Part shown: positions 5,391 to 23,623 of the stretch, piece after piece | How the letters are laid out: the number at the start of each line of letters is the position of its first letter | Position numbering within the stretch: position 1 is the stretch's first letter | DNA from: Pseudooceanicola sediminis | GTDB taxonomy: Bacteria; Pseudomonadota; Alphaproteobacteria; Rhodobacterales; Rhodobacteraceae | Assembly (NCBI RefSeq): GCF_003575965.1 | Contig: NZ_QWJJ01000008.1 | Span: forward strand, 158,941-222,940 | Reading direction: 5' to 3' | Length of the DNA: 64,000 bases | Program-made: the position numbers and the translations under genes | The notes under the pieces: model-generated | What the model saw: the letters and a program-made list of their open reading frames with translations, nothing else | Databases searched by the model: none | What the model was told of the DNA's origin: nothing

Positions 5391-5646
5391 CTGTTGACGC
5401 CCTCGGGTGGGCCATGGCTACATGACGGCCCACTTCCTCGGGGTCAAGGCGCGGGCCGCAAATGCCCCGGAAACGGTCAATTTGCCTCAACTCCCCCGGC
5501 CCCACCGCCGCGCCGTGTCAGCGGCACTTGACGACCCACCCCGCTTAACTGTTTCCATACATACGAAATCGGACAATAGCGTTTGAGGTGCCGGGCCAAT
5601 CCGTGCCTCAATGGCGCAGGGCAGAACCAAGGGGAGGCAGGGCAAA

Positions 5647-9200: not shown

Positions 9201-9563
9201 ACCGCGATGGCGACCTACCTCGCCTCGCTGCCGACTGACGCACCCGCGCCGCTGCCCGAACAGGCCGCGACCATACCCGACCGTATCGACCGGATCTTTG
9301 CCAATGCCTGCGCCAGCTGTCACGAGGCGGCGCTGCCCGACCTACTGACCGCCGCGCAGATCCCGCTGACCCGCGCCCCGGCGATCCGCGCGCCCTCGCC
9401 CGCCGCCGCACAGGCGACGATCCGCGACGGGTTGCGCGCCCCCACCGGCACCGCGCTGCGCGACATGCCCGCCTTTGGCGCGGACCTGGCCGAGGCCGAC
9501 ATCCTTGCGCTGGCCCGCTATCTGCGCGCGCGCTACGCCCCAGACCTGCCCGGCTGGGACTAA
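6207..9563 (+). CDS. molybdopterin hydroxylase large subunit fused to a three-haem cytochrome c (NicB-like)
   Basis: 1118-residue fusion. Residues 1 to about 705 are the molybdopterin-binding domain of the isoquinoline 1-oxidoreductase/nicotinate dehydrogenase group, with the presumed catalytic glutamate in GVGESAG near residue 668. A hydrophobic segment near 724-745 follows a basic RRKRK stretch and should anchor the tail in the membrane. The rest is a cytochrome c region with three CxxCH haem sites at residues 777, 920 and 1035. Known relatives hydroxylate N-heterocycles or oxidise aldehydes and hand electrons to the respiratory chain through these haems. Substrate here is not known. Accessory genes (xdhC, mobA-like) are not adjacent. 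Confidence 0.87.
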   Translation: MTDALTIRRNGDTFLTLSPDGTATGYNGHVDLGTGLQTALAQIVAEELDLPLSAVRIVLGDTARTPDQGPTIASESIQITAVPLRAAAAQARHWLARAGALRLNAPLADISTQDGHVIWQDQRISYAALLAGRAEVLPLDDAAPLKDPANYTLVGHKAGRTDLPAKLTGDFDYIHDIRLPGMLHGHVIRPPYAGRDSGDFIGRSLISFDDSAIAALPGFVAVVRQADFLAVVATKAHLARQMAEALPVQWHRPPDLPDLSDPVAAIKDHPSSPRVLDTTGDIRAGLADCSPRLDRRYVWPWHMHASIGPSCAVADWNGGAPIVWSGTQNPHMLRGDLATLTGLAPEVIEVRRHQAAGCYGRNCADDVAGDALLLTRALGQRVRVQLTRAQENLWEPKGAAQVMEVSGGVNAAGDFHAYAFDSWYPSNRGPNLALLLTGAISPEPRPSDMGDRTIVPPYRIAHKRITVHDMAPIVRAAWLRGVSALPNTFAHESFVDELAAQAQEDPVAFRLRHLDDPRQADLVRRTAQAAAWQTRTQPTLRRKGRMAYGQGFAYATYVHGAFPGTAAASAAWVVDVAVDMETGEVTLSRVFVGQDQGLAINPDHVRQQIHGNVIQTASRALQESVSFDQITVTDQSWATYPLATFPQTPQIETMLVARPDDPPLGVGESAGVPAAAAIANAIFDATGVRMREVPFTPERMRDALGIQPRQSAPLALPGRRKRKTLLATTLGLTAALGLGALSFPLARAIPKTTAPAAANFSAETLTRGETLFALGNCASCHTAPDGAPNAGGRAIDTPFGTVHSTNLTPDPDTGLGTWSFAAFARAMRAGISRDGHNLYPAFPYTSFAGMAEDDLFALYAHLQTLPAVAQPTPKAQMSVPRPALAAWNALFHRPQSLAPDPAQGADWNRGRYLVETVGHCSECHTPRTALGAQAKTPLSGAMVRDWFAPALAGPDAQLRGTDDIAAYLSTGVAPGRAAASGPMAEVIAGLSTLPDGDITAMATYLASLPTDAPAPLPEQAATIPDRIDRIFANACASCHEAALPDLLTAAQIPLTRAPAIRAPSPAAAQATIRDGLRAPTGTALRDMPAFGADLAEADILALARYLRARYAPDLPGWD

Positions 9564-10732
9564 AGCGCACCCAGCACCGCGCACAGGCGCGCAATCTCGT
9601 CCTGCGTCGTCAGATAGCTGACCGAGGCACGGCAGACCGGCCCCGCCAGACCCGACAGCGGGCCATAGTGCGCGGGTACCGCGTTGATCGTCACGCCTTG
9701 GGCGCGCAGCGCCTGCATCACCTCGGCCGGCGTCATGCGCGCATGGGTAAAGGTGGTGATATGGCTCTGAACCACGCCGCTTTCGCGCAGGCTCACCCCC
9801 GCCACGCCGGACAAACCGGCGCGTAAGGCCGCGACCTTGTCAAACGTCGCCCGGCGGATCTCCTCGACCCTGAGGTCCAGCGCCAGCCCCAGCGCCACCC
9901 CAAGGCCCAGCAGCGGCGCGGGCGCATACTCGTTGCTCTCGAACCGCGCAGCGTCGCGCCGCAATACGACCTTGCCCGCCTGCCAGCCTGCCGCGCGCAC
10001 GTTCAGCGCACCCGGTGTCGCCGCACATCCCTGTCGCACGTACAGCACCCCAGTTCCCTTGGGCCCGCGCAACGCCTTGCGCCCCGGGGCCGTCAGCATG
10101 TCGCAACCGATCCGACCGACATCGCAGGGCAGCAGGCCCAGCGCCTGCGCCGCATCCAGCAGATAGGGCACACCCGCCGCCCGCGCGATCTGCCCCACCT
10201 CGGCCACCGGCTCTGCGATGCCCAGGTGCGCCGGAACCCATGTCACCGCGATCAGCCGCACCCGGTCATCCATCATCGCCGCCAGCGCGCCGGTATCCAT
10301 CCGCCCATCCGGTCCCGTCGGGATCGTCTCGATCACCGCACCGCTGCGCCGCGCGGCCTCCACCAGGGTAAAGACGTTGCCGCCCCATTCATGCGCGCCA
10401 ACCAGCACACGGTCGCCCCCCTGCAAGGCAGGCAAGGCATGAAAGGCCGCGTTCCAGGCCTGCGAACTTCCCGTTGTCAGCGCGACCTCCTCGGCACGCG
10501 CCCCGATCAGCCGCGCCGCCGCCGCCCGTGCCGCTTCGATGGCGTCGGCCACGGCCACGCCTGCCTCATGCGGGGCCAGCGCAGCCTCGGCCTGCAAATG
10601 CGCCTGCATCGCTTCCAACACCGCGCGCGGCACCAGGCCGCTGCTGGCCGCGTTGAAATGAACCACCCCCGGCAGCGCCGGCGTGGCCGCGCGCAACGCC
10701 TCGATATCCAGTCCCATCTGATCCGCCATCAT
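9560..10732 (-). CDS. class V PLP-dependent aminotransferase (NifS-like fold)
   Basis: 390-residue pyridoxal-phosphate enzyme of the class V family (cysteine desulfurase, isopenicillin N epimerase, kynureninase-like). Visible elements are the N-terminal VHFNAASSG motif, the aspartate of the DAAQA motif that contacts the cofactor, and the Schiff-base lysine region TAPGRKALRGPKGTG. It lacks the cysteine-bearing loop of true IscS, so desulfurase activity is uncertain. Two adjacent ATGs (10732 and 10729) follow a GGGG-type ribosome site; the longer is given. Its stop overlaps the end of the convergent hydroxylase gene. It is transcribed divergently from the panE-like gene. Confidence 0.8.
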   Translation of the reverse strand: MMADQMGLDIEALRAATPALPGVVHFNAASSGLVPRAVLEAMQAHLQAEAALAPHEAGVAVADAIEAARAAAARLIGARAEEVALTTGSSQAWNAAFHALPALQGGDRVLVGAHEWGGNVFTLVEAARRSGAVIETIPTGPDGRMDTGALAAMMDDRVRLIAVTWVPAHLGIAEPVAEVGQIARAAGVPYLLDAAQALGLLPCDVGRIGCDMLTAPGRKALRGPKGTGVLYVRQGCAATPGALNVRAAGWQAGKVVLRRDAARFESNEYAPAPLLGLGVALGLALDLRVEEIRRATFDKVAALRAGLSGVAGVSLRESGVVQSHITTFTHARMTPAEVMQALRAQGVTINAVPAHYGPLSGLAGPVCRASVSYLTTQDEIARLCAVLGAL

Positions 10733-10871
10733 CACCCCTGCCCCAACCGTTTCTGTCCCGCAGGCTATCCGCCCACGCACCGGCGTCAAACCCTCTCGGA
10801 CCGCGCTGCGGGTGATTTCCGCGCCAAAGATTTGCCCATCGCGGCGGGGTCCTCCGCGATTTTTGGCGCGG

Positions 10872-10904: not shown

Positions 10905-10979
10905 TCGGAATTTACTTCAATAATCACGTTACTTTTCTTGCAACCATTCCGAGACATCGGTCCACGATTGGGAATTTTC

Positions 10980-11954
10980 ATGACGCGTCCCTCCATTGCC
11001 ATTGTCGGTGCCGGTGCCATCGGGTCGATCCTCGCCGCGCGCCTTGCACAATCGGGGGCCGATGTCCGCCTTGTGGCGCGCGGCACGCGTCTGGCGCAGA
11101 TCCGGCAGGATGGCCTGCGCATCCGTGATCTGGACGGCGAGGTCACGGTGCATGTGCCCGTGGTCGCCGCCCTCGCCGCGCCGGTCAGCGTGCTGTTCCT
11201 CTGCGTGAAAGGCCCCGCGATCGAGGCCGCGATCCGTGACAACCTTGCAGGCATGGGGCCGGACACCCGCGTCGTGCCGCTGGTCAACGGTATCCCGTGG
11301 TGGTTCTTTGATGACCTGGGCCACCCGGTGCGCGCGGTCGATCCCGATGGCGCGCTGTTCGACCTGGTGCCCTTCGACCAGATCGTCGGGTCGGTCACCA
11401 TGATGACGGCGGCTTTTGACGACGACGGCACCGTCGTGTCGACCATCCCGCACAAGCTCGCCCTGGGGCCGACAACGCCGAACGGCCCCCGCCCCGTCGA
11501 TCTGGCAGACGAAATCACCGCCGCCGGCATCACGCTGGACCGTGCCGACCACATCCGCCCGCTGGTCTGGCAAAAGCTGGCGCTGAACCTCGCCACCAAT
11601 CCGTTGTCGGCGCTGACAGGGCAGACCCTGGAACAGATTGCCGCCGATCCCGCCAGCCTGGCCCGCGCCACCGCCATCGCGGTCGAGGCCGAAACCCTTG
11701 CCGCCGCCTGGGGCTGCCCCATCGACATCGCAGCCCACATGCCCGCGCAGCTGGCCCGCGCCGGTGCGTTCCGCACCTCGATGCTGCAAGACGCCGAGGC
11801 AGGCCGCCCGCTGGAGCTGGCCCCGATCTGCGACGCCCCGCTGGAACTGGCCGAGGCGCGCGCCATCGCCATGCCCGAAACCGCCACCCTGCTGAGCGAA
11901 CTTCGTGCCAAACTGGGCACACCCGCAGCCGCCCTGCCCCAAGGAGCCTTGTGA
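10980..11954 (+). CDS. 2-dehydropantoate 2-reductase family protein (PanE/ApbA-like)
   Basis: 324-residue NAD(P)H-dependent reductase. The N-terminal Rossmann motif is VGAGAIGSILAARL, and the C-terminal ketopantoate-reductase domain (about 180-310) includes the conserved lysine of the LVWQKLALNLATNPLSAL stretch. Family members reduce 2-ketopantoate for CoA synthesis, but many paralogues reduce other 2-oxo acids. Coupling to a class II aldolase rather than to panB or panC argues for a catabolic or side role. The ATG at 10980 is used although its ribosome site is weak. The stop overlaps the next start (TGATG). Confidence 0.8.
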   Translation: MTRPSIAIVGAGAIGSILAARLAQSGADVRLVARGTRLAQIRQDGLRIRDLDGEVTVHVPVVAALAAPVSVLFLCVKGPAIEAAIRDNLAGMGPDTRVVPLVNGIPWWFFDDLGHPVRAVDPDGALFDLVPFDQIVGSVTMMTAAFDDDGTVVSTIPHKLALGPTTPNGPRPVDLADEITAAGITLDRADHIRPLVWQKLALNLATNPLSALTGQTLEQIAADPASLARATAIAVEAETLAAAWGCPIDIAAHMPAQLARAGAFRTSMLQDAEAGRPLELAPICDAPLELAEARAIAMPETATLLSELRAKLGTPAAALPQGAL

Positions 11955-12709
11955 TGACCATCCACACCACCGACCGCCTCGCCGGCAAATCCGAAGCCGA
12001 CCTGCGCGTCCAGCTCGCCGATTTCTACCACCTCGTCAGCTACCTCGGCTGGACCGAGCTGATCTTCAACCACATCTCCGTGCGGGTGCCCGGCGAAACC
12101 CACGCCTACCTCGTGAACCCCTTCGGGCTGCACTATGACGAGGTGACGCCCGAGAACCTGATCAAGGTCGGCATCGACGGCAAGAAGATCGAGGACAGCC
12201 CCTATGACGCCAACCCCGCCGGGTTCGCGCTGCACGGTGTCATCCACGAAAACCGCCCCGACGTCGGCTGCATCGCTCATACCCACACCACGCCGATTTC
12301 CGCCATCACCATGAAGGCCTTCGGCATCGACCACGACAGCTTTTATGGCGCGCAGCTCTATGGCCGCGTCGGCTATCACGGGTTTGAAGGCATCACGCTC
12401 TACGACGATGAACGCCCCCGGATGCTCGACTCGCTGGGCGACAGGCATGTCCTCGTCCTGCGCAACCACGGTATCGCCGTGTGCGAGGCCGACATCCCCC
12501 TCACCTTCTTCCTGCTCTGGACCGTCCAGCGCGCGGCGGAAATCCAATGCGCCTCGCAGGGCATTCCCGGCCCCAACACCACCCTGCCCGAAGTCATCAA
12601 GCAGAAATGTGCCGACGATGCCCAGCGCCTGAAGGAAAGCGCAAAGTTCGCGGACCTGCTGTTCGATGCCATGGTGCGCAAGATGAAACGCGACCAGGGC
12701 CGCGCCTGA
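11954..12709 (+). CDS. class II aldolase/adducin family protein
   Basis: 251-residue cytoplasmic protein of the AraD/FucA family of zinc aldolases and epimerases. Zinc-ligand histidines are visible in IAHTHTT and in LRNHGIAV, and the NHISVRVPG motif is typical of the family. AAGGAG seven bases before the ATG at 11954 sets the start, which overlaps the panE-like stop. With a 2-oxo-acid reductase beside it, a role in cleaving or making hydroxy-keto acids is reasonable, but the substrate is unknown. Roseobacters carry several such genes, often annotated as 'class II aldolase'. Confidence 0.85.
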   Translation: MTIHTTDRLAGKSEADLRVQLADFYHLVSYLGWTELIFNHISVRVPGETHAYLVNPFGLHYDEVTPENLIKVGIDGKKIEDSPYDANPAGFALHGVIHENRPDVGCIAHTHTTPISAITMKAFGIDHDSFYGAQLYGRVGYHGFEGITLYDDERPRMLDSLGDRHVLVLRNHGIAVCEADIPLTFFLLWTVQRAAEIQCASQGIPGPNTTLPEVIKQKCADDAQRLKESAKFADLLFDAMVRKMKRDQGRA

Positions 12710-12805: not shown

Positions 12806-12879
12806 CCCTTGCAGATTTCTCTTAGTGAATCGACCTTAATGCGGTAATATTGACGTAATAAAGACGAAACGGAGCCCTC

Positions 12880-14046
12880 ATGACCCCCGACTTTCCCCCA
12901 GGCCTCAGCCCGGACGCCGCGATGACCGTATCGCTGGATCTCGGCACGTCCGGGGGGCCACGGGTCGCGGTCAAGGAATGCCTCGCGATCGAGGGGTTGC
13001 CGACCCGCGCAGGCTCGGCCGCGCTGGCCGATGCGCCGCCTGCCCTCGCTCATGCGCAGGTCGTGCAAACCCTGCTCGACACCGGCTGCCAGATCGTCGG
13101 GCGCGCCAACATGCACGAACTGGCCTACGGGATGACCGGCGCGAACGCGCATACCGGGACGCCGCAGAACCCGCGCTGGCCCGACCGCATTCCCGGCGGC
13201 TCCTCCTCTGGCTCGGCGGTTCTGGTGGCGCAGGGCGCGGTCGATTTCGCCGTCGGCACCGACACCGGCGGCTCGATCCGCCAGCCTGCGGGCTGTTGCG
13301 GTGTCTTCGGGCTGAAACCGACCTTCGGGCGGATCAGCCGCGCCGGGGCCACCCCTGTCGCCTCCACCCTCGACTCCATCGGCCCCTTTGCCGCGACGGC
13401 CCCCATGCTGACGCGTGCCATGTCCCTGATGGACCCCACCTTTCAGGCCGAAAGCCTCGCCAGCCCCCCCTCGCTGGCGCTGCTCCGGCCCGAGGCCGCG
13501 TCCGATATCACCGCCAGTTTCGACGCGGCCACCAAACTCCTGCACGATGCAACGCTGACCGAGGCGACGCTGCCCAGCCTCGATGCCGCCTATCACGCCT
13601 CGATGACCATCATCGGGCATGAAATCGCGGCCGAATTCGGCGCCCTCGCCGCCTCCAACGCCACCCTTGGCGCGGATGTGCGCGCCCGCATCCTGAACGG
13701 CACGCGCATCACCGCCCGGCAACTGGCCGACGCCGAAGCCGTCCGCACCCGCTTTACCGCCGAAATCGACGCGCTGCTGGACACGCACGACGCCATCCTG
13801 TTGCCGCTTCTGGCCCGCACGCCCCCCACCTGGGCCGTGGCCGCAGACCCGGCCGCCGTCCTGCCGATGACCCGCTTTATCCGCCAGTTCAACATGTCCG
13901 GCCACCCGGCGCTGGCCCTGCCCACCCTGACGGCAGACGGCCTGCCCGCTGGTTTGCAACTGATCGGTGCCAAGGGGGCCGATGCCCGCCTCTGCGCCAT
14001 CGCCGAATGGATCGCCGCCCGCACCCCTGAAGAGGAGACAGCCTGA
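12880..14046 (+). CDS. iacH: amidase-signature enzyme, IacH-like
   Basis: 388-residue cytoplasmic amidase. The catalytic triad of the amidase-signature family is visible: lysine in RVAVKE, cis-serine in the GGSSSGSA loop, and the nucleophile serine in GTDTGGSIRQP. The length is short for the family (usually 450-500). In characterised iac clusters an amidase (IacH) takes part after oxidation of indole-3-acetic acid, plausibly on an oxindole-type amide bond; that role is inferred here from synteny. It is the first gene of the operon; GGAG five bases before the ATG supports the start, and the stop overlaps the next start (TGATG). Confidence 0.8.
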   Translation: MTPDFPPGLSPDAAMTVSLDLGTSGGPRVAVKECLAIEGLPTRAGSAALADAPPALAHAQVVQTLLDTGCQIVGRANMHELAYGMTGANAHTGTPQNPRWPDRIPGGSSSGSAVLVAQGAVDFAVGTDTGGSIRQPAGCCGVFGLKPTFGRISRAGATPVASTLDSIGPFAATAPMLTRAMSLMDPTFQAESLASPPSLALLRPEAASDITASFDAATKLLHDATLTEATLPSLDAAYHASMTIIGHEIAAEFGALAASNATLGADVRARILNGTRITARQLADAEAVRTRFTAEIDALLDTHDAILLPLLARTPPTWAVAADPAAVLPMTRFIRQFNMSGHPALALPTLTADGLPAGLQLIGAKGADARLCAIAEWIAARTPEEETA

Positions 14047-15206
14047 TGTCCCAAGCTCTCGCAGAAGCCACCACAACGGTGGCGCAGACCCCCGATGTCA
14101 CGCTCGACACCGTGCTGGCCCAGATCCGCGCCCGCCGGGCCGAATTCGAAGGTCTGGCCCATGTCCCCGCCGACATGGTCGCACAGCTGCAACAGGTCGG
14201 GGTCTACCGGGCCTTCGTGCCGAAACGCTTTGGCGGTGACGCCCTGTCGCCCGCCGACTTCTGCCGCCTGATCGAAAAGATCTCGATGGCCGATGCCTCG
14301 ACCGGCTGGGTCTCCAGCTTCGGGGTCTCCTCGACCTACCTGGCGGCGCTGCCGCCCGAAACCTTCGCCAAGATCTACGGCGCCAACCCGAACACCGTCT
14401 TTGCCGGGGCGATGTTCCCGCCGCAAAAGGCCACCCGCGAAGGCGACCGGCTGCGCGTGTCGGGTCGCTGGCCGTGGTGCTCCGGCTCCATGGGGGCCTC
14501 GCTGATCGGCGTCGGCATCAAGATCGAGGGCGAATCCTCGCCCCTGCCACGCTCTGCCATCTTCCCCGTCGCGGACGTCACCATCGACCAGACATGGGAC
14601 ACCGTCGGCCTGCGCGCCACCGGCTCGCATGACGTGGTGGTCGAGGGCAAGCTGGTGGACGAGGACTGGACCTTCATCCGTGGGTCCGCGCCGCAGCTCG
14701 ACGACCCGATCTTCCGCTTTCCCGCCATGGCGCTGGCCGCGCAGGTGCTGGCCGTCGTCGCCCTTGGCACCGCCCGCGAGGCGCTGGACTGGGTGAAATC
14801 CGACGCCGCCAAGAAGGCCTCGATCACCGGCGCGCCCAGCCCCGGCGCGCGCCCCTATGTGCAGGCCGACCTGGCCCGCGCCGAGGCGCTGCTGCGCTCC
14901 GCCCGTGCCCATTTCTACGAAACCATCGAAGACGCCTGGGACCAACTGCTGACCAAGGGCGAGGTCGACCCCGATCTGCGCATCCGCCTGCGCCTTGTCG
15001 CCACCCAAGCCGCGCGTGATGGGGCCGAGGCCGCCCGCATCGCCTTTGTCATGGGTGGGTCCAACGCCATGCGCACCGGCCACACGCTGGGGCGCTGCAT
15101 GATCGACGCCGCCTGCGTCGCCCAGCACGCCTTCATGAACGAAGGCACCTGGACCGCCGCCGGTGCCGGAATGTTCGGCGAAGCGACGCCCCCCGGTTAC
15201 CCATGA
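14046..15206 (+). CDS. iacA: flavin-dependent monooxygenase of acyl-CoA-dehydrogenase fold, IacA-like
   Basis: 386-residue group D flavoprotein monooxygenase. Acyl-CoA dehydrogenase N-terminal, middle and PF08028-type C-terminal domains can be followed in order. There is no base-catalyst glutamate motif of true acyl-CoA dehydrogenases; the fold instead matches HsaA, DszC and IacA. IacA in pseudomonads starts auxin breakdown by oxidising the indole ring of indole-3-acetic acid, using reduced flavin from a partner reductase. That partner would be the flavin reductase gene at 19393. The start codon overlaps the amidase stop, so the two are translationally coupled. Confidence 0.82.
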   Translation: MSQALAEATTTVAQTPDVTLDTVLAQIRARRAEFEGLAHVPADMVAQLQQVGVYRAFVPKRFGGDALSPADFCRLIEKISMADASTGWVSSFGVSSTYLAALPPETFAKIYGANPNTVFAGAMFPPQKATREGDRLRVSGRWPWCSGSMGASLIGVGIKIEGESSPLPRSAIFPVADVTIDQTWDTVGLRATGSHDVVVEGKLVDEDWTFIRGSAPQLDDPIFRFPAMALAAQVLAVVALGTAREALDWVKSDAAKKASITGAPSPGARPYVQADLARAEALLRSARAHFYETIEDAWDQLLTKGEVDPDLRIRLRLVATQAARDGAEAARIAFVMGGSNAMRTGHTLGRCMIDAACVAQHAFMNEGTWTAAGAGMFGEATPPGYP

Positions 15207-15244
15207 CCTAACAGGTCCGATCCGGCCCTGAATGCCGCGCAGAA

Positions 15245-15288
15245 ATACCGACGTGATACCGACACGATACGGCACTTGATACCGACAC
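15245..15288. repeat. four phased ATACCG repeats
   Basis: ATACCG-type cores begin at 15245, 15256, 15267 and 15279, that is every 11 to 12 bases, one helical turn. They lie in the 105-base gap between iacA-like and iacB-like genes. Pairs with the same 11-base spacing occur at 41620-41637 and, reversed, at 62133-62150. Confidence 0.65.
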
Positions 15289-15311
15289 CCCAAAATCCAC
15301 GGTGAAATGAT

Positions 15312-15668
15312 ATGACTGCTCCTCTCCGCACCCTTCTCTGCTTCAACAACCACCCGACCTTCTTCAGCCTGCCCTTCGATCAGATCGGCCCGGTGTGGAA
15401 GGCCACACAGGAACTGATGTCCTCCATCGCCAAGATGGATGGTGTTGAAATCGTTGGTACTTTTGATGACGATCAGACCATGGTTGGCGCAAGTCAGGGC
15501 TTTCCTTACACCTGGTACATCCTCGCGGACTTTCCCAACCGCGATGCCGTGCAGGCCGCCTGCAACTTCCTGCGCACCATCGTCGTGGGCGAAGGCAACG
15601 ACCGCCTCTGGAAGTACATGACAGTCGAAGCCCGCATGGGCCGCGCACTGGAAATTCCCGACCTGTAA
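15312..15668 (+). CDS. iacB: small protein in iacB position
   Basis: 118-residue soluble protein without a signal peptide or membrane segment. It is rich in aromatic residues (NNHPTFFSLPF, FPYTWYILADFPN) and looks like a single ferredoxin-like alpha/beta barrel domain of the EthD/dimeric barrel type, though I cannot prove that. Its place between the monooxygenase and the Rieske oxygenase is that of iacB, a small gene of unclear biochemical role in auxin-degrading bacteria. The symbol rests mainly on gene order. The ribosome site before the ATG is weak (GGTGAAA). Confidence 0.65.
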   Translation: MTAPLRTLLCFNNHPTFFSLPFDQIGPVWKATQELMSSIAKMDGVEIVGTFDDDQTMVGASQGFPYTWYILADFPNRDAVQAACNFLRTIVVGEGNDRLWKYMTVEARMGRALEIPDL

Positions 15669-15690
15669 GCAACTGGAAAGAGACGGAAAA

Positions 15691-15885
15691 GTGACTGACT
15701 CCGCGAAAATCCGCCAGATCGTCGAAGCCTCCCGCGCCCGCTTTTTGCGGGGTGTTCTGGTGCAGGCGACGGTGCCCGGGCGGCCCCCCGTCGCGGTGAA
15801 TTCCGTCTCGACTCCCCGCGCCAAGACCAGCTTCCGCCCCCTGCGCACTCCTCCCTCCCAGCCCATCACGAAGGACAGGACATGA
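15691..15885 (+). CDS. 64-residue coupled small protein in the iac-like operon
   Basis: Small ORF with a GTG start 22 bases after the iacB-like stop and a purine-rich GGAAAGAGACGGAAAA before it. Its TGA overlaps the Rieske gene start (ATGA), the same coupling as its neighbours, which supports translation. The product is basic and proline-rich with no recognised domain: residues 1-25 could form a helix (SAKIRQIVEASRARFLRG) and the rest is likely disordered. In the iacHABICDEFG order reported for other bacteria, iacI sits in this slot. This could be a reduced or unrelated replacement, or simply leader sequence for iacC. Confidence 0.5.
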   Translation: MTDSAKIRQIVEASRARFLRGVLVQATVPGRPPVAVNSVSTPRAKTSFRPLRTPPSQPITKDRT

Positions 15886-17159
15886 CCCTCGATCATTTCC
15901 CCCAAGGCCCGCAAGACGCCAGCTATGCCCCGCTGGTGAAGGGCGACCGCGTTGCCACCCCGATGTATGAAGACCCCGCCATTTTCGATGTCGAGATGGA
16001 GAAAATCTTTGGCAAAACATGGGTTTGGGTCGGGCACGAATCCGAGGTTCCCGACAAGGGAAACTTCAAGCTGTCGGTCGTCGGCACCCAGCCGGTGATC
16101 ATTTCGCATGACCGAAAGGGCGCACTGCACGTGCTGGTCAATCGCTGCCGCCACCGCGCCGCGACCGTCTGCGAGATCAAGAAGGGCAAGACCAGCTCCT
16201 TCCAATGCCCCTACCACGGCTGGGGCTATGCCCTCGACGGCAGTCTTCGCGGTGTCCCCTACACCGAAGGCTACAACACCGACTTCGACAAAAAAGACTA
16301 TGGTCTCAAGAAGTTGAAGGTTGAAACATACCAGGGCATGATCTTCGCCTCCTTCAACATGGACGTCGAACCGCTGGAGGATTTCCTCGGCAATGCCAAA
16401 CCCTGGATCGACCTGTTCATGAAACAGGGTGGCGGATTCCCGGTCAAAACCCTCGGGGAACATCAGTTCAAGGTCCCGATGAACTGGAAGATCCAGTTGG
16501 AAAACACCACTGACGCCTACCATTTTCCCGTTGTTCACAAGAGCTTCATGCAATCTCTCGACGGTGAGGCAACGCAGCAGTTCTCCTTCCTCGAAGACGA
16601 TGACGGCTGGGTCGAAGACCTTGGCAACGGCCACTCCGTCATGGTGATGATGCCCGAGTTGAACGACCTCGACGACAACCTCGATGCCCCGATCCCCGAA
16701 CGCTTCCAGGCGCTGGCGGAAACCCTGCGCGCCGACTACGACGAAGATCAGGTCCGCCGCATCGTGCGCGCCGTCGGCGGCTGCGGCTTCAACCTCAACC
16801 TGTTCCCGAACGCCGCCTGCTCGCTGTCGTTCTTCCGCATCCTGCGCCCTGTCTCGGTGAACGAGACCGAGATCCGCCACATTGCCCTTGGCATGGACGG
16901 CGGCCCGGAGGCGGCAAACCAGATGCGCATGCGTCTTCATGAGCATTTTCAAGGGCCTATGGGCTTCGGCTCTCCCGATGATGCTGAGGTCTGGGAACGT
17001 GTGCAACGCGGCTCTGCCGGCGGCGGCGACCTGGATGTGATGGTCAACCGTGGCAAGGGCCTGGAAGAAACCTCCGAAAATGGCCTGCCCAAGGGCGACA
17101 TCAGTGCCGAAACCGGCATGCGTGCCGCCTACGCCAAGTGGCAGGAGATGATGGCGTGA
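15882..17159 (+). CDS. iacC: Rieske aromatic-ring oxygenase, alpha subunit (IacC-like)
   Basis: 425-residue catalytic subunit of a ring-hydroxylating oxygenase. The Rieske [2Fe-2S] site is C89-x-H91-x17-C109-x2-H112. The mononuclear iron site shows D211, H214 and H219 in DAYHFPVVH, with the aspartate bridging neighbouring subunits in this family. Electrons should come from the reductase at 18427. In auxin catabolism IacCD acts late, towards catechol. It overlaps the previous small ORF by ATGA, has AAGGA before its ATG, and overlaps the beta subunit by GTGA. Sequence alone cannot exclude an anthranilate- or benzoate-type substrate. Confidence 0.85.
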   Translation: MTLDHFPQGPQDASYAPLVKGDRVATPMYEDPAIFDVEMEKIFGKTWVWVGHESEVPDKGNFKLSVVGTQPVIISHDRKGALHVLVNRCRHRAATVCEIKKGKTSSFQCPYHGWGYALDGSLRGVPYTEGYNTDFDKKDYGLKKLKVETYQGMIFASFNMDVEPLEDFLGNAKPWIDLFMKQGGGFPVKTLGEHQFKVPMNWKIQLENTTDAYHFPVVHKSFMQSLDGEATQQFSFLEDDDGWVEDLGNGHSVMVMMPELNDLDDNLDAPIPERFQALAETLRADYDEDQVRRIVRAVGGCGFNLNLFPNAACSLSFFRILRPVSVNETEIRHIALGMDGGPEAANQMRMRLHEHFQGPMGFGSPDDAEVWERVQRGSAGGGDLDVMVNRGKGLEETSENGLPKGDISAETGMRAAYAKWQEMMA

Positions 17160-17647
17160 AAGACATGACACCCGAGACAGAAATCACACTGGATGACGCG
17201 ATCAAGTTCCTCTGGAGCGAGGCCGACATCCTGGATCGCAACGATTTTGATGCCTGGTTGCCGCTTTGGCATGGCGGACATTACATCATCCCCATCGGCG
17301 ATGAAGTGACGGATTTCGCCAACAATCTCAACATCGTCTACGATGATGCGCAGATGCGAAAGGCCCGCGCCGCGCGCCTGTCGGGGGGCTTTTCGATCTC
17401 TGCCGCGCCGCCGGCGCGCACTGTGCGCACGCTGTCCCGCTTCGTCTTTACCGAAGAGGCACCCGGCGCCGTCACCATCCGTTCCGCCCTGCATGTGATC
17501 GAGGACAAGTTCGGCCGCCAGCGCATGTTTGCCGCCAATGTCGAACACAAGCTGATCGCGACCGAAAACGGTATCCGCATCACCCAGAAGGTCGTGCGGC
17601 TGCTGAACTCCGACGGAATGCTGACCTCGATCAGCTACCTTTTCTGA
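17156..17647 (+). CDS. iacD: aromatic-ring oxygenase beta subunit (IacD-like)
   Basis: 163-residue structural subunit of the alpha3beta3 ring-hydroxylating oxygenase, with the NTF2/SnoaL-like cone fold. Typical features are the N-terminal helix with EADILDRNDFDAWLPLW, the YDDAQMRKARAARL helix, and a beta-rich C terminus ending in ISYLF. The GTG at 17156 is chosen because AGGAG stands eight bases upstream and it overlaps the alpha-subunit stop by GTGA; a GTG at 17138 and an ATG at 17165 are alternatives. It has no catalytic residues of its own. Confidence 0.85.
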   Translation: MKDMTPETEITLDDAIKFLWSEADILDRNDFDAWLPLWHGGHYIIPIGDEVTDFANNLNIVYDDAQMRKARAARLSGGFSISAAPPARTVRTLSRFVFTEEAPGAVTIRSALHVIEDKFGRQRMFAANVEHKLIATENGIRITQKVVRLLNSDGMLTSISYLF

Positions 17648-17648
17648 A

Positions 17649-18410
17649 ATGGGGGCTCCCTTGCCAGACGTCATCCAGACCGCCGTTGTCACCGGGGCCG
17701 CCAGCGGTGTCGGTGCCCGTATCGCCCGCGCGCTGCACGCCGCGGGGTTCCGGGTTGTCATCTCAGATATCGATTCCGAGGGCGCATCGGCACTGGCGAC
17801 GGACCTCGACCTGGCCGGTGAAACCGCCGTCACCGCGACGCTGGATGTGTCCAAACCCGAGCATTTTCAAGAAGTTCTGGACAAGGTCATCGACCGATGG
17901 GGATCGTGCGAAGTGCTGGTGAACAACGCCGCACTGACCAAGGCGCAACCCGTGCTCGACATCGCACCTGAGGATTTCAACAGGATCCTGACGGTCAACG
18001 CGGGCGGCACCTTTGCGGGCAGCCAGATCTTCGGGCGGCACTTCAAGGACCGCGGCTATGGCCGCATCATCAACATGGCCAGCCTGGCCGGACAGAACGG
18101 CGGCACCACCACGGGCGCGCATTACGCCGCCTCCAAGGGCGCGATCATGACATTGACCAAGGTGTTTGCCCGCGACCTCGCCCCCTTTGGCATCACCTGT
18201 AACGCCATCGCGCCCGGTCCGCTGGACAGCCCGATGGTGCATGACCTGGTCCCGGCGGACAAGATGCCGGGAATGCTGGCCAATATCCCCGCCGGGCAGT
18301 TGGGCGACCCGGCCTTTGTCGCCAACCTCGTGGCCCTGCTTGCCGGTCCCGCGGCCAGTTTCGTCACCGGCGCCTGCTGGGACGTCAACGGCGGCCTGTT
18401 CATGCGCTGA
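17649..18410 (+). CDS. iacE: short-chain dehydrogenase/reductase (IacE-like)
   Basis: 253-residue classical SDR. The cofactor motif TGAASGVG lies near residues 15-22, NNAA follows, and the catalytic Y159-x3-K163 is in YAASKG, with the serine in the NMASLAG strand. Family members use NAD(H) or NADP(H) to oxidise alcohols or reduce ketones. In iac clusters IacE acts on an early oxidised indole-acetate intermediate; this assignment rests on synteny. The ATG one base after the beta-subunit stop is used; a TTG at 17661 with GGGGGC before it is an alternative. Confidence 0.82.
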   Translation: MGAPLPDVIQTAVVTGAASGVGARIARALHAAGFRVVISDIDSEGASALATDLDLAGETAVTATLDVSKPEHFQEVLDKVIDRWGSCEVLVNNAALTKAQPVLDIAPEDFNRILTVNAGGTFAGSQIFGRHFKDRGYGRIINMASLAGQNGGTTTGAHYAASKGAIMTLTKVFARDLAPFGITCNAIAPGPLDSPMVHDLVPADKMPGMLANIPAGQLGDPAFVANLVALLAGPAASFVTGACWDVNGGLFMR

Positions 18411-18426
18411 GGCGGAAAGAAGACCT

Positions 18427-19383
18427 ATGACCACCGAGACCCTGACACTGATGATCGCGGAACGCCTTGACGACAAAGGCGATATCATGCGGCTGACCCT
18501 GACGGACCCGACAGGCGCGCCCCTTCCCCCCGTCACGGCGGGGGCGCATATCGACGTGCTGGTCGCCACCGACAGCGATACGATGTGGCGACAGTATTCC
18601 CTGGCGGGCGATCCCGCGGATCGCAGCAACTGGACGCTGGGCATCCTGAAGGAACCCGCCAGCCGCGGCGGCTCGGTCGCGCTGCACGATATCGCCCGCA
18701 AGGGGGCCGAGCTGCGCATCACCGGGCCGCGCAACCACTTCGGCCTGGTCGAGGCAGACAAGACCTACCTCTACGGCGGGGGCGTCGGCGTTACTCCGAT
18801 GCTTGCAATGGCGTATGAGTTGCACGCCAGGGGTGCCGCATTCGAACTGCACTACTGCACCCGCAGCGCCGATCGTGCCGCCTTTGACGACCTCCTCCGA
18901 GCCGCACCCTTTGCCGAGTCTGTCCACCAGCATCACGACGACGCAGAGAGCAAGTTCAACACCGACGCGCTGCCCGACCCCGCCGACGACACCCATCTGT
19001 ATATCTGCGGCCCCGAAGGGTTCATGTCCTGGCTGATCGGCGCGGCCGAGGCCCGGGGCCATGCCTCGGCCCACATACATCGCGAATATTTCTCGGCAGA
19101 CGTGGACGTCACGGGCGACACCTTCGAAGTCGAGGCCCGCGCCTCTGGCATCACCGTCACCGTAGGCGAGGGCGAATCCATCGTCACAGCCCTTGCACGA
19201 AGCGGCATCTCGGTAGAAGTGAAGTGTGAGGAAGGCATTTGCGGCACCTGCCTGACCGATGTTCTTGAGGGAGAGCCGGACCACCGCGATCATTTCCTCA
19301 CCGATGAAGAAAAGGCGGACAACAGCGAGATGTGCCTGTGCTGCTCGCGCGCGAACTCTGCGCGACTGGTGCTGGATATCTGA
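18427..19383 (+). CDS. iacF: ferredoxin reductase component of the Rieske oxygenase (IacF-like)
   Basis: 318-residue electron-transfer protein of the vanillate-demethylase/phthalate-dioxygenase reductase type. Domains in order: flavin-binding barrel with RQYSLAGDP, NAD(H)-binding domain with YGGGVGVTPM and CGPEGFM, then a C-terminal plant-type [2Fe-2S] domain with C267, C272, C275 and a final cysteine in MCLCCSR. It would pass electrons from NADH to the Rieske centre of the oxygenase coded upstream. The start ATG at 18427 follows GGCGGAAAGAAG. No stand-alone ferredoxin gene is needed or present. Confidence 0.87.
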   Translation: MTTETLTLMIAERLDDKGDIMRLTLTDPTGAPLPPVTAGAHIDVLVATDSDTMWRQYSLAGDPADRSNWTLGILKEPASRGGSVALHDIARKGAELRITGPRNHFGLVEADKTYLYGGGVGVTPMLAMAYELHARGAAFELHYCTRSADRAAFDDLLRAAPFAESVHQHHDDAESKFNTDALPDPADDTHLYICGPEGFMSWLIGAAEARGHASAHIHREYFSADVDVTGDTFEVEARASGITVTVGEGESIVTALARSGISVEVKCEEGICGTCLTDVLEGEPDHRDHFLTDEEKADNSEMCLCCSRANSARLVLDI

Positions 19384-19392
19384 GGAATGATC

Positions 19393-19920
19393 ATGACCGA
19401 CAGCCCACCCCCACCCGAGCACAAAAAACCGACCGAGGCGGAGGTTCAGACCTTTCGCGAAGGTATGGCCCGCCTCGGCGCCGCCATCACCATCCTGACA
19501 ACCGATGGCCCTGCGGGCAAACATGGCATGACGGCCTCGGCCGTGTGCTCGGTGACGGACAGCCCGCCGACCCTGCTGGTGTGCATCAACAAATCGAACC
19601 GCAGCCATGACATCATCGAAAAGAACGGCGTGATTGCCGTGAACGTCCTGGGCGGGCGGCATCGTGAGCTTTCGGCCGCCTTTGCCAGCAAGAAGAGCGA
19701 GGAGGCACGTTTCGCCGGTGGCGTCTGGCGCACGATGGCCACCGGCAGCCCTTTGCTGACGGATGCGCCTGTCGCCTTCGATTGCAAGATCACGGACAGC
19801 AACACCGTTGGGTCCCACACCGTCTTCTTTTGCGAGGTGCAGGCGATGGAACTGGCGAAAGGTCAGGCGGAAACCCTGATTTGGTTCGGTCGTGACTTTC
19901 ACCACCTGACGGCGATCTGA
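19393..19920 (+). CDS. iacG: NAD(P)H:flavin reductase (IacG-like)
   Basis: 175-residue protein of the FMN-binding split-barrel flavin reductase family (HpaC/DszD-like). Signature segments are the MTASAVCSVTDSPPTLLV core and the GSHTVFFCEV strand. It makes free reduced flavin for a two-component monooxygenase, here most likely the IacA-like enzyme at 14046. The second ATG (19393) is preferred because GAGGA lies six bases upstream; an ATG at 19387 overlaps that site. It is the last gene of the operon, 18 bases from the convergent regulator stop. Confidence 0.85.
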   Translation: MTDSPPPPEHKKPTEAEVQTFREGMARLGAAITILTTDGPAGKHGMTASAVCSVTDSPPTLLVCINKSNRSHDIIEKNGVIAVNVLGGRHRELSAAFASKKSEEARFAGGVWRTMATGSPLLTDAPVAFDCKITDSNTVGSHTVFFCEVQAMELAKGQAETLIWFGRDFHHLTAI

Positions 19921-19938
19921 CCCATGATCCCGGCGCGC

Positions 19939-20421
19939 TCAATACTCTCCCAAACGGTGAAAAACGCGCTCCATCAGGGTGTTGAGGGTGCGCTGTTCTT
20001 CTGCATCCAGATCCTGAAACGCCCCGGCAAACACCAGATCGGCAATCGCGCGGGCCTCGCGGCGGCGCGCGTCGCCCAGCGGCGTCAGGGTCACCTCGGT
20101 TACGCGGGCATCGGTCGGTCGGGCGCGCGTTGTCACCAGACCATCGGCCACCATCCGCTGGATGATCTTGGTGGCCGTGTTCAACTTGATGATGCAGACC
20201 TCCGCGATCTCGGACACGCTCATGTGCTCGTCCTCGAACAGGGACATCAGCACACGCCAGCGCGGCACGTCCAGACCGATCGCCTTCAGCCGCTTTTCCA
20301 TCGTCATGAAGTAGCGTGCCGAGGTGCGGGTCAGCCAATAGAACGGCCAGTCCTGCTTGCGGAATCGGCCCTCGCTCGCATCGGTATCCTGCGCATCTTT
20401 CTTGTCGATCGGATCGCTCAT
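19939..20421 (-). CDS. iacR: MarR-family transcriptional regulator (IacR-like)
   Basis: 160-residue winged-helix repressor of the MarR family. The recognition region is VSEIAEVCIIKLNTATKIIQ and the wing carries the expected charged DARVTEVTLTPLG segment; flanking helices form the dimer interface. MarR proteins in auxin-degrading bacteria (IacR) repress the catabolic genes until an indole-acetate-type ligand binds. It converges on the iac-like operon and diverges from the TRAP genes, so it could control both. AGAGG before the ATG at 20421 fixes the start; a longer upstream frame exists but lacks a ribosome site. Confidence 0.82.
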   Translation of the reverse strand: MSDPIDKKDAQDTDASEGRFRKQDWPFYWLTRTSARYFMTMEKRLKAIGLDVPRWRVLMSLFEDEHMSVSEIAEVCIIKLNTATKIIQRMVADGLVTTRARPTDARVTEVTLTPLGDARRREARAIADLVFAGAFQDLDAEEQRTLNTLMERVFHRLGEY

Positions 20422-20574
20422 GCTGCCTCTTTTCTCGCCCCTACCACCCGCGCACCGTGCATCGTGACACCAAAATGATGAAGGTCGCTGACTTTCGCCA
20501 GAAAAAACCAAGAATAGTCACGTGAACATTACGATGATTTTCAGAACAACAGCAACTCAACAGGGAAACCAAAG
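20422..20574. promoter_or_regulatory. divergent iacR / TRAP control region with candidate operators
   Basis: 153 bases must hold both promoters. Candidate MarR-type site: AAGGTC-GCT-GACTTT (20481-20495), a near-perfect inverted repeat with one mismatch. A second palindrome, TCACGTGA, is at 20518-20525. The half-site AAGGTCG recurs reversed at 12831-12837 upstream of the first iac-like gene. Assigning them to IacR is inference. Confidence 0.45.
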
Positions 20575-21594
20575 ATGCTCTTCAAGAAGCTGACAATGAC
20601 GACGACTGCGGCGCTGGCGCTGTCCACCGCGGCTGCGATGGCCGACACCACGCTGACGGTGGCCAACTGGCTGCCCCCCTCGCACCCCCTCGTTTCCGAG
20701 GTGATCGTGCCAATGACCGAAGCGATCGCCGAGGCGACCGGCGGATCGGTCACCACCAACATCCTGCCCGCCCCCCTGGGGCCGCCACCTGCGCATTTCG
20801 ACTTTGCCGTCAATGGTGTGGCCGACATCACCTTCGGCGTGCAGAACTATTCGCCGGGCCGCTTCAAGACGACCAGCGTGGCTGAAATGCCCTTTCTCGG
20901 CAACAGCGCGACCGCAATGTCCGTCGCTTACTGGCGCACCTTCGAGGCGATGCTGAAACAGGCCGGTGAATACGATCAGGTCAAGGTTCTGGGCGTTTTC
21001 ACCCATGGTCCGGGCGAGATCTTCATCAAGGAGGGCGACGCCTCAAGCACCGACGTCCTCAAGGGCACCAAGATGCGCGTCGGCGGTGGTCTGATCAACG
21101 AAGTCACTACCCAGCTGGGCGCCGTACCCGTAGAAGGCCCCTCCTCCAAGGCGTACGAACTGCTTAGCCAGGGCGTGGCCGACGGGATCTTCTTTCCCTA
21201 CGAATCCGTCAACTCCTTCGGCCTGATCCCGCAACTGACCAAGGGGATCGACGTGCCCGGCGGCCTCTACAACACGTCGTTCTTCGTCGTGATGAACAAG
21301 GCCAAATGGGACAGCCTGACCAGCGAAGAGCAGGCCGAGATCGACAGCGTCACCGGTGAATCGCTGGCCCGGCTTGCCGGCCAGATGTGGGACAGCGCCG
21401 ACGCCAAGGGCAAGGCGGCGATGGACGGCAAGATCGAAATCACCACGGCGACCGACGACCAGATGGTTGCCTGGACAGATGCGCTCGCCCCCGTGATCAA
21501 GGAAAAGATGGATGAAATCGCGTCGACCGGTGTCGACGCCGAAGCAGCCATGAAGATGATGGAAGACGAAATCGCCAAGGTCGAGGCCGAATGA
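20575..21594 (+). CDS. TRAP transporter substrate-binding protein (DctP family)
   Basis: 339-residue periplasmic solute receptor. A signal peptide (basic MLFKKL, hydrophobic core, cleavage after AAAMA) is followed by the mature TTLTVANWLPPSHP start typical of DctP proteins. The QLGAVPVEGP and DGIFFPYESV stretches lie in the family core, where an arginine normally binds the ligand carboxylate (the likely site here is KMRVGGG). Such receptors bind organic acids, including aromatic ones. Being divergent from iacR, the likely cargo is indole-3-acetate or a related aromatic acid; that is inference. It overlaps the small permease gene by ATGA. Confidence 0.88.
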   Translation: MLFKKLTMTTTAALALSTAAAMADTTLTVANWLPPSHPLVSEVIVPMTEAIAEATGGSVTTNILPAPLGPPPAHFDFAVNGVADITFGVQNYSPGRFKTTSVAEMPFLGNSATAMSVAYWRTFEAMLKQAGEYDQVKVLGVFTHGPGEIFIKEGDASSTDVLKGTKMRVGGGLINEVTTQLGAVPVEGPSSKAYELLSQGVADGIFFPYESVNSFGLIPQLTKGIDVPGGLYNTSFFVVMNKAKWDSLTSEEQAEIDSVTGESLARLAGQMWDSADAKGKAAMDGKIEITTATDDQMVAWTDALAPVIKEKMDEIASTGVDAEAAMKMMEDEIAKVEAE

Positions 21595-22142
21595 GCCCCA
21601 ATCCTGCCGAACATTTCGCAGCGGGTCCGGAGGCAGCAATGTCTCCGGCTCCCGGCAAACGGACCAGCGCGTTCAGCATCTGGCCCCGGCGCATTCTGGC
21701 CTGGGTATGCGGTGCGATCCTGCTGGTGCTGATGACACTGACCGTCGTCGACGTGATCGGTCGCTACATCTTCAACGCTCCGCTGATCGGGTCCACCGAA
21801 TTGACCGAGGTGCTGCTGGTGTCGGTGATCTTCATCGGTCTGCCCGCCGTCTGCATGGACGATGAACATGTCACCGTCGATCTGGTGACCTCGCAGATGC
21901 CCGCGTGGGTTCATCCCTTCCGAAAAGCACTGCTGGCGCTGATCTCCGCCACGATCTTTGGCGTCATCTCCTGGCGGCTCTGGATCTACGGCAGCCAGAT
22001 CGCGGGCTATCACGGCGTCACCAATTCGCTGCGGATTCCCGTCGGGCCTTTCGCATGGCTCTGCTCGGTCTGTGCCGCCGTGGCCGTCGTCATCACGCTC
22101 TACGTCGCCGCCCGTGATCTGCGCCGTGCTCTCAGGGCCTGA
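21591..22142 (+). CDS. TRAP transporter small permease (DctQ family)
   Basis: 183-residue inner-membrane subunit with four predicted helices: about 35-57, 70-92, 110-132 and 147-168. Conserved DctQ features include the DVIGRYIFN segment after helix 1 and the PRRILAW lead-in. A 30-residue polar N-terminal extension is longer than usual. It pairs with the large permease downstream, and the start overlaps the receptor stop (ATGA), so the three subunits should be made together. Confidence 0.85.
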   Translation: MSPNPAEHFAAGPEAAMSPAPGKRTSAFSIWPRRILAWVCGAILLVLMTLTVVDVIGRYIFNAPLIGSTELTEVLLVSVIFIGLPAVCMDDEHVTVDLVTSQMPAWVHPFRKALLALISATIFGVISWRLWIYGSQIAGYHGVTNSLRIPVGPFAWLCSVCAAVAVVITLYVAARDLRRALRA

Positions 22143-22194
22143 CCCTGCGCGGCGCTGATCCCCTCAAGCCCTGAACATCGAGACGTTTTCCCCC

Positions 22195-23493
22195 ATGGAA
22201 CTTCTAGCCAACTGGCCCGTCGGCATGGCCGCCCTGTTTGTCCTGCTGCTCGTGGGCCTGCCGATTTCCATAGCCCTGACGCTGATCGGCCTGCTCGGCA
22301 CGGTCTCGATCATAGGGTGGAGCCCGGCCCTGTCGCTGCTGGGCACGACCTTCTTCGACCAGGGCAAGAACTACTCCCTGTCGGTGCTGCCGCTGTTCCT
22401 GCTGATGGGCAACTTCGTGGTGCAATCTGGCATCGCAAGAGAGCTGTACGAGGCCGCCCATGCCTGGTTGCGCCATCGCAAGGGCGGTCTGGCCCTGGCC
22501 ACCGTCATCGCCTGCGGCGGCTTTTCCTCGGTCTGCGGCTCTTCCATGGCGACGGCGGCGACGATGGCACGGATCTCGCTGCCCTCTATGCGCCGCTATG
22601 GCTATCCAGATGATCTGTCGACCGCCTCGATCGCGGCTGGCGGCACGTTGGGCATCCTGATCCCGCCATCGGTGATCCTTGTCTTCTATGGCATCATGAC
22701 CCAGCAGGACATCGGCAAACTGTTCCTGGCGGGGATCGTGCCCGGCCTGCTGGGCATCCTCGGCTATACGACCGCCGTCTGGATCTCCGTGCGGTTTCGC
22801 GGCATCGACCTTGCAACCGAACCCAAGCTGCCCCTGCGCGACCGCCTGCGCGCCCTCAAGGGGACCCTGGGCGCAATCATTTTGTTCATCTTCGTCATGG
22901 GCGGCATCTACCTTGGCGTGTTCACCCCGACCGAAAGCGCCGGGATGGGCGCTGCGGGGGCCCTGCTCTTGACGATCCTGTCAGGCAAATTCTCGGTCTC
23001 ATCGGCCTTCGTGACGCTGTTCGACGCGGCGAAAACAACGGCGATGATGTTTTTCATCCTGTTTGGCGCACTGACCTTTACCAACTATGTCAACTTCAGC
23101 GGCATGACCGCCGACATGCAGGCCTTTGTCACCTTTTTCGGAGACGGGCCGACCTCCGTGATCCTGACCATCCTGGTGATTTACCTGGTTCTCGGCTGCG
23201 TCCTCGAGGGGCTTTCGATGATCATGCTGACAGTTCCGATCTTCTATCCGGTTGTCGCGGCGCAGGGGTTCGACCTGATCTGGTTTGGCGTCTTCGTCGT
23301 GGTGATCACCGAAATATCCTACATCACTCCGCCGGTTGGCATGAACGCCTTCGTATTGCGCTCAGTGGTCAAGGACGTCCAGTTGAGCACGATATTTCGG
23401 GGTCTCGTCCCCTTCGTACTGATGGATATCGTGCGGATCGTCTTGTTGATCCTGGTGCCTGGACTGGTTCTGTTCCTGCCCAACAGCATGTAG
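22195..23493 (+). CDS. TRAP transporter large permease (DctM family)
   Basis: 432-residue ion-coupled permease with about twelve membrane segments, the transport core of the tripartite system. Family hallmarks seen are the GLPISIALTLIG start, the SGSS-like turn near CGGFSSVCGSSMATAATM, the GGTLGILIPPSVILVFYG loop and the late VVITEISYITPPVGMN segment. Length is normal. The 52-base gap from the small permease lacks a clear terminator, so it is probably co-transcribed. A tRNA gene follows 56 bases later. Confidence 0.88.
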   Translation: MELLANWPVGMAALFVLLLVGLPISIALTLIGLLGTVSIIGWSPALSLLGTTFFDQGKNYSLSVLPLFLLMGNFVVQSGIARELYEAAHAWLRHRKGGLALATVIACGGFSSVCGSSMATAATMARISLPSMRRYGYPDDLSTASIAAGGTLGILIPPSVILVFYGIMTQQDIGKLFLAGIVPGLLGILGYTTAVWISVRFRGIDLATEPKLPLRDRLRALKGTLGAIILFIFVMGGIYLGVFTPTESAGMGAAGALLLTILSGKFSVSSAFVTLFDAAKTTAMMFFILFGALTFTNYVNFSGMTADMQAFVTFFGDGPTSVILTILVIYLVLGCVLEGLSMIMLTVPIFYPVVAAQGFDLIWFGVFVVVITEISYITPPVGMNAFVLRSVVKDVQLSTIFRGLVPFVLMDIVRIVLLILVPGLVLFLPNSM

Positions 23494-23549: not shown

Positions 23550-23623
23550 GCGGGTATGGTGTAATGGTAGCGCCCTAGCCTTCCAAGCTAGTCGTGCGGG
23601 TTCGATTCCCGCTACCCGCTCCA
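23550..23623 (+). tRNA. tRNA-Gly (anticodon TCC)
   Basis: Complete cloverleaf of 74 bases with encoded CCA. The acceptor stem is GCGGGTA with TACCCGC and a T discriminator; the anticodon arm CTAGC-CTTCCAA-GCTAG gives anticodon TCC; the T-arm GCGGG-TTCGATT-CCCGC is perfect. It reads GGA and, with a modified wobble base, other glycine codons. No integrase or att duplication was seen beside it. Confidence 0.97.

Follow-up and report, generated by a model that had tools for sequence, protein, structure and literature searches.

Gene content of the locus

The stretch of DNA analysed here (the window) comprises 64,000 nucleotides of Pseudooceanicola sediminis on contig C48 of a 4.44 Mb genome in 54 contigs, and it contains a set of genes assigned by homology to the iac family, which converts auxin (indole-3-acetic acid, IAA) to catechol. 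The genes lie on the plus strand in the order KPR-ALD-iacH-A-B-(64-codon open reading frame, ORF)-C-D-E-F-G, followed by the convergent regulator gene iacR, the plus-strand dctP-Q-M genes of a tripartite ATP-independent periplasmic (TRAP) transporter and a tRNA-Gly gene. The positions and families of the genes described in an initial annotation, from the amidase through the TRAP transporter, were confirmed using the ORF list and Pfam; KPR and ALD (10980-12709), which are assigned here from sequence comparison to the iac unit, had been overlooked. Positions are those of the window.

10917..10931, minus strand: weak operator-like match (3 mismatches) upstream of KPR; same stretch unchanged in P. 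spongiae
10980..11954, plus strand: KPR, ketopantoate-reductase-like 2-oxoacid/2-hydroxyacid oxidoreductase (ApbA/PanE; Pfam ApbA, ApbA_C)
11954..12709, plus strand: ALD, class II aldolase/adducin-fold enzyme (Pfam Aldolase_II)
12844..12858, minus strand: operator-like motif upstream of iacH, exact match
12880..14046, plus strand: iacH, amidase (Pfam Amidase)
14046..15206, plus strand: iacA, flavin-dependent monooxygenase of the acyl-CoA-dehydrogenase fold (Pfam Acyl-CoA_dh_2)
15312..15668, plus strand: iacB, small protein (homology to iacB of relatives)
15691..15885, plus strand: 64-codon ORF, not IacI; no family, at the place where relatives carry iacI
15882..17159, plus strand: iacC, Rieske dioxygenase alpha subunit (family match)
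17153..17647, plus strand: iacD, dioxygenase beta subunit; an earlier in-frame start is possible at 17138
17649..18410, plus strand: iacE, short-chain dehydrogenase/reductase (family match, homology)
18427..19383, plus strand: iacF, ferredoxin reductase (family match, homology)
19387..19920, plus strand: iacG, flavin reductase (family match, homology)
19939..20511, minus strand: iacR, regulator of the MarR family with a probable start codon near 20421; best solved relative 7KUA
20518..20532, plus strand: exact copy of the operator-like motif, in the iacR-dctP gap; the opposite strand carries an overlapping weak copy
20575..21594, plus strand: TRAP receptor (DctP-like), aromatic-acid type (Pfam, structure comparison)
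21591..22142, plus strand: DctQ, TRAP small membrane subunit (Pfam)
22195..23493, plus strand: DctM, TRAP large membrane subunit (Pfam)
23550-23623, plus strand: tRNA-Gly (tcc), directly behind dctM

The iac cluster and its relatives

The identity of the cluster was assessed across 88 loci, made up of 80 named genome loci, 7 plasmid loci and the window; the genome loci were gathered through IacC as the best 80 of 550 relatives and are thus biased to close kin, the closest named relative among them being Pseudooceanicola spongiae HQ09 (IacC 98%). The iacA-H core was found to be complete in 81 of the 88 loci, with seven of the eight genes in six others and six in one cut contig, so that a chance grouping is not at issue, and the iac reading of the initial annotation was upheld by the presence of the core genes together in the window. 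When compared with loci of Acinetobacter, Caballeronia and Enterobacter (L008-L010, L082), identity was 59-65% for IacC, 43-48% for IacA, 45-46% for IacH and 41-50% for IacB (in the three loci where it was found), with only 28-51% for IacG. These values resemble those between published systems, given as 40-61% for P. xenovorans LB400 and P. putida 1290 (PMC11676955 Table 3), and hence fit iac membership. The product of iacB is 89% identical to that of a Thioclava locus (L004). On plasmids (best 40 of 939 records listed), the first 30 IacC matches run from 85% to 54% identity and are followed by 38%, and amongst 394 sampled genomes of the family IacC was matched (E up to 1e-150) in 12, its own genome included. 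Monooxygenases of the IacA type are known as ‘group D’.

The marker genes of iac systems are named as iacA, iacB and iacI (PMC9613470). The first two lie inside the cluster. The initial annotation had read the locus as a full IAA route in the order iacHABICDEFG, with the 64-codon ORF as IacI; the iacA-H part of that route stands, but iacI is not in the cluster. The 64-codon ORF was rejected as IacI because it matches no family and because the sole iacI homologue of the genome is on another contig, C8: a profile of six IacI proteins matched a single protein of the genome (E 8.3e-77), likewise a single one of P. spongiae, and two of P. endophyticus. By this homology iacI is present but unlinked from the cluster, since the single match is on C8 and none is in the cluster. 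The C8 gene (L105 10295-11572) follows a second IacR-like MarR gene, 44% identical to iacR, as an isolated pair, and P. spongiae (L107) carries the same pair. In most relatives an NTF2-fold iacI is found between iacB and iacC, which is its published place, or at another point of the locus, in many cases running divergently from iacH; within the fetched flanks it is missing from five of the 88 loci (the window, P. spongiae, L048, L050 and L092). An ORF of 64-67 codons occupies the iacI place in the window and P. spongiae, with no match among the remaining surveyed loci. It is kept in frame between the two, yet its differences by codon position are 18/12/27 over 64 codons, compared with 1/2/34 over 118 for iacB and 11/8/109 over 425 for iacC, so that it would at best encode a weakly constrained small protein. 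The P. endophyticus genome also holds a second iac set (L108; genome G002, contig C23) with the other form of iacI, and no match to the window TRAP transporter was seen in the 19 kb examined there.

IacR and a predicted operator

The MarR protein of the window has as its best solved relatives 7KUA (E 1.5e-34), then 7L19 and 7L1I, against 1.5e-10 for IadR (3CDH), which supports the earlier placing of the convergent regulator in the IacR group. 7KUA is the IacR of P. putida 1290, and 7L19 and 7L1I are among the structures listed in the same source; IacR proteins are described there as binding IAA, whose carboxylate lies close to Tyr44 in the P. putida protein (PMC9613470). The window protein retains the two tyrosines of the aligned first helix, either of which may be the counterpart of Tyr44.

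A search for simple inverted repeats gave no consistent operator in the promoter regions compared. Comparison of promoters by shared words, in turn, revealed a common element upstream of iacH, in the iacR-dctP gap and upstream of the remote iacI. In the 4.44 Mb genome this element, TNACGTSAAYATTAC, is matched exactly at these three places and nowhere else, and P. spongiae likewise has just three exact matches, at the corresponding genes; it is the predicted operator of IacR. An IacR operator identified earlier was used in PMC8242030, and TNACGTSAAYATTAC may or may not be the same element. Because the pattern was derived from sites that it describes, it was tested in other loci: with up to two mismatches, and with both source genomes left out, it lies upstream of iacH in 52 of 84 loci, where the reversed pattern gives 0/84 and shuffles predict 0.75. 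Across all loci, the counts at this threshold are 54/86 for iacH and 0/23 for KPR, and the window KPR promoter carries the motif at 3 mismatches only. Before iacI of the divergent type it was found in 35 of 56 loci, often in the same intergenic stretch as that of iacH and so not as an independent case. Of 880 stretches drawn at random from these loci, without exclusion of true sites, 18 contain it. At whole-genome scale only the exact matches are specific: with up to two mismatches the motif is matched 26 times in the genome itself and 29 times in P. spongiae, compared with 12 and 7 times for the backward pattern, counts that are weakly informative.

The TRAP transporter

The three TRAP proteins, DctP, DctQ and DctM, score over their Pfam cut-offs and are encoded in one operon. 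A TRAP transporter adjoins iac in 34 of the 88 loci, in several gene orders, and in 29 of the 37 Rhodobacterales loci surveyed (a sample chosen for likeness to the window IacC), so the initial description of TRAP as an unusual partner for auxin does not hold in Rhodobacterales. The proposal that it is the importer fared better in part: position (34/88) and, in the window, the shared motif tie it to the cluster, and its ligand may be IAA or a related aromatic acid such as indole-3-lactate. In a structure comparison with solved receptors the receptor model was nearest to aromatic-acid TRAP receptors, and its best matches would place it in the TarP-type class. It differs from the members of that class (TarP_Sse, TarP_Csal, TarP_Rhp; 4P56) in its pairing with auxin catabolism. 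Known ligands of solved receptors are mandelate for 4P56, indole pyruvate and IAA for 4PGN/4PGP and D-tryptophan for 4NAP.

Two TRAP subtypes can be distinguished, one of which is found with KPR in 20 of 21 loci and the other in 0 of 13. The Fisher value for this link (1.5e-8) overstates it, since related loci are counted as independent; a tree-aware test leaves three independent pairs (p 0.25). A literature search found no paper joining a TRAP transporter, IAA and iac, and major facilitator superfamily proteins are listed as transporters of dioxindole-3-acetic acid (DOAA) (PMC11676955). The tRNA-Gly gene behind dctM is a possible integration point for the cluster.

A proposed auxin regulon

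It is very probable, on the gene content and homologies set out above, that this Pseudooceanicola-like roseobacter has an IacR-controlled regulon that imports IAA and/or a close aromatic carboxylate and degrades it to catechol. In the absence of inducer IacR would sit on the operators at iacH, the iacR-dctP gap and the remote iacI, from which IAA would release it. The TRAP transporter would then import IAA and/or a closely related aromatic carboxylate. Inside the cell, IacA with IacG would convert IAA to 2-oxoindole-3-acetate, IacE would make DOAA, and IacCDF with IacI and presumably IacH would take DOAA to catechol, an order of reactions taken from published accounts of the pathway and not from the window. 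Enzymes encoded in other parts of the genome would finally cleave catechol.

The initial annotation had noted no catechol- or anthranilate-degrading genes in the window, and this agrees with the four intradiol-dioxygenase matches of the genome, all of which are off C48 (annotation covering part of the 64 kb). There are three ring-hydroxylase alpha matches in the genome, and the one on C48 is IacC. Contig C14 encodes an intradiol dioxygenase with a catechol-type N-terminal domain, a muconate cycloisomerase (397 bits against a cut-off of 335) and an alpha/beta hydrolase, which are likely, on family matches, to provide the exit for catechol. The same contig (L112 689-11144) carries an octopine-dehydrogenase-like gene, a 3-hydroxyacyl-CoA dehydrogenase gene and a second TRAP system facing the muconate cycloisomerase and intradiol dioxygenase; L009 and L147 carry relatives of the dehydrogenase pair near iac. 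Amongst the 88 loci, maleylacetate reductase with an intradiol dioxygenase is near iac in 24, mostly alphaproteobacterial (e.g. L005 1-1462, L007 1-1161), and muconolactone isomerase occurs in 11, with both it and maleylacetate reductase in 2; in some iac loci, then, ring products may take a route through maleylacetate besides that through catechol.

Several points weigh against the proposed regulon. The motif was derived from the same sites that it describes, within two mismatches it is missing upstream of iacH in 32 of the 84 other loci, and it precedes dctP in only 4 of 33, so that TRAP control in other loci rests on gene position. No such TRAP transporter is present in 54 of the 88 loci, and it is hence not needed for iac in general. 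With regard to the ring, the C14 dioxygenase reaches none of the curated cut-offs, and canonical CatA was not found among the three matches in the genome, the best of which reached 147.6 of 392 bits (TIGR02439).

KPR, ALD and alternative explanations

The KPR and ALD genes overlap by one base. KPR passes two NCBIfam subfamily models and reaches no equivalog cut-off; D-mandelate dehydrogenases are known in its family. ALD has three histidines (H109, H111 and H172) that are invariant in 26 aligned relatives and probably have a metal role. It can be suggested, tentatively, that the transporter imports indole-3-lactate or a similar aryl 2-hydroxy acid, which KPR would oxidize to indole-3-pyruvate and ALD, as an O2-using non-haem iron enzyme, would decarboxylate to IAA for the Iac enzymes to finish; this would add to the regulon proposed above, not replace it. 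It is no less tentative that importer, KPR and ALD might belong together as a mobile ‘auxin-precursor’ module, added to iac clusters on several occasions and controlled by IacR, with ALD as an uncharacterized non-haem iron oxygenase of the class II aldolase fold that oxidatively decarboxylates indole-3-pyruvate to IAA. The ALD model scores nearer to NovR and pyruvic oxime dioxygenase than to E. coli fuculose aldolase in a comparison with the PDB, but the model is weak (predicted local distance difference test, pLDDT, 71), its best match (3OCR) has a title that names no function, and TqaM scores no higher than adducin (19.4) and a fuculose aldolase of Glaciozyma (19.3). Identity of ALD to the non-haem iron enzymes NovR, pyruvic oxime dioxygenase and TqaM is 19-26%, and their class II aldolase fold is common also to aldolases and adducin. 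Further points against the precursor route are that KPR proteins across lineages are only 34-39% alike, that Thalassospira has an ALD relative (60%) in a different pathway from which KPR is absent, and that the link between TRAP type and KPR comes down to three pairs after tree correction. No paper on NovR-like enzymes in auxin catabolism was found among the matches listed. Two loci (L048, L050) have the type-1 TRAP transporter and KPR, with no ALD over threshold and no iacI in the fetched flanks.

KPR and ALD could instead act downstream, processing the C4 side-chain fragment (oxaloacetate-like) released between DOAA and catechol, with the TRAP transporter importing IAA alone. Their co-conservation with iac in several lineages would suit this, and retro-aldol cleavage of the DOAA side chain seems chemically reasonable; it is nonetheless improbable, as both genes are missing in the fetched flanks of 62 of the 88 loci (48 + 13 + 1; KPR only in 2), so that the core pathway does not need them, and their link to one TRAP subtype points to import. 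It is more doubtful still that the transporter is a chance neighbour which imports a phenolic or other aromatic acid unrelated to auxin (coumarate, mandelate, 4-hydroxyphenylacetate): the best solved relatives of its receptor do bind such acids, but its recurrence beside iac in several gene orders and the motif in the iacR-dctP gap argue otherwise. Finally, an operon of a benzoate/anthranilate-type dioxygenase outside iac is highly implausible, for although the alpha subunit comes nearest, among curated models, to those of anthranilate, phenylpropionate and benzoate dioxygenases, it falls far under their cut-offs (214 of 672, 197 of 830 and 189 of 781 bits) and is matched at 59-98% in iac loci with other iac genes around it.

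Comparison with known systems and significance

The predicted IacR regulon shares the iacA-I and R families with the system of P. putida 1290, which takes IAA to catechol (PMC9613470), but the order there is ABCDEFGRHI, compared with HAB-CDEFG-R in the window, where iacI is unlinked and KPR-ALD and TRAP genes are added. A class II aldolase and a 2-dehydropantoate 2-reductase, of unknown function, are already in print beside the iac genes of Marinomonas sp. MWYL1/NFXS50, which are likewise marine and have a MarR-type iacR; unlike the window, these loci have an ATP-binding cassette importer, iacI in the cluster and, as iacH, a distant amidase (PMC11373566). The iad loci (Variovorax, Bradyrhizobium; IadR of Ruegeria pomeroyi) also serve auxin degradation under a MarR protein, whereas the window has iacA and iacB and a regulator far closer to IacR than to IadR structures.

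Upstream of KPR are two genes for a molybdenum hydroxylase (5611-9563, plus strand), encoding a 2Fe-2S subunit and a large subunit fused to cytochrome c domains, a pair matched in one of the 87 other iac loci, that of P. spongiae. A hybrid iac/iad locus, with this pair as ‘iorB’, was considered and dropped, as iorB/iotA is a different enzyme, the indolepyruvate ferredoxin oxidoreductase that marks iad (PMC9613470). The hallmarks of iad were not found in the window, its MarR being IacR-like and 5611-9563 not being iorB/iotA; no whole-genome search for iorB/iotA was made. Divergent from KPR is a gene for a class V aminotransferase protein (9560-10789, minus strand), which is not in the P. spongiae locus and for which the nearest curated model, EgtE (ergothioneine), scores far under its cut-off.

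New here are the unlinked iacI, an aromatic-acid TRAP importer under apparent IacR control and the importer-KPR-ALD module. In the sea, auxin moves between algae and bacteria, and an importer feeding auxin catabolism was not named in the literature found. With an operator prediction, a receptor whose fold is well solved and two small enzymes, the importer question can be tested directly, and the operator offers a handle for finding unlinked members of the auxin regulon, as with iacI. Should the precursor route be true, the ‘aldolases of unknown function’ that accompany iac genes would represent a new way of making IAA, and indole-lactate and auxin would be harvested by such bacteria as one resource.

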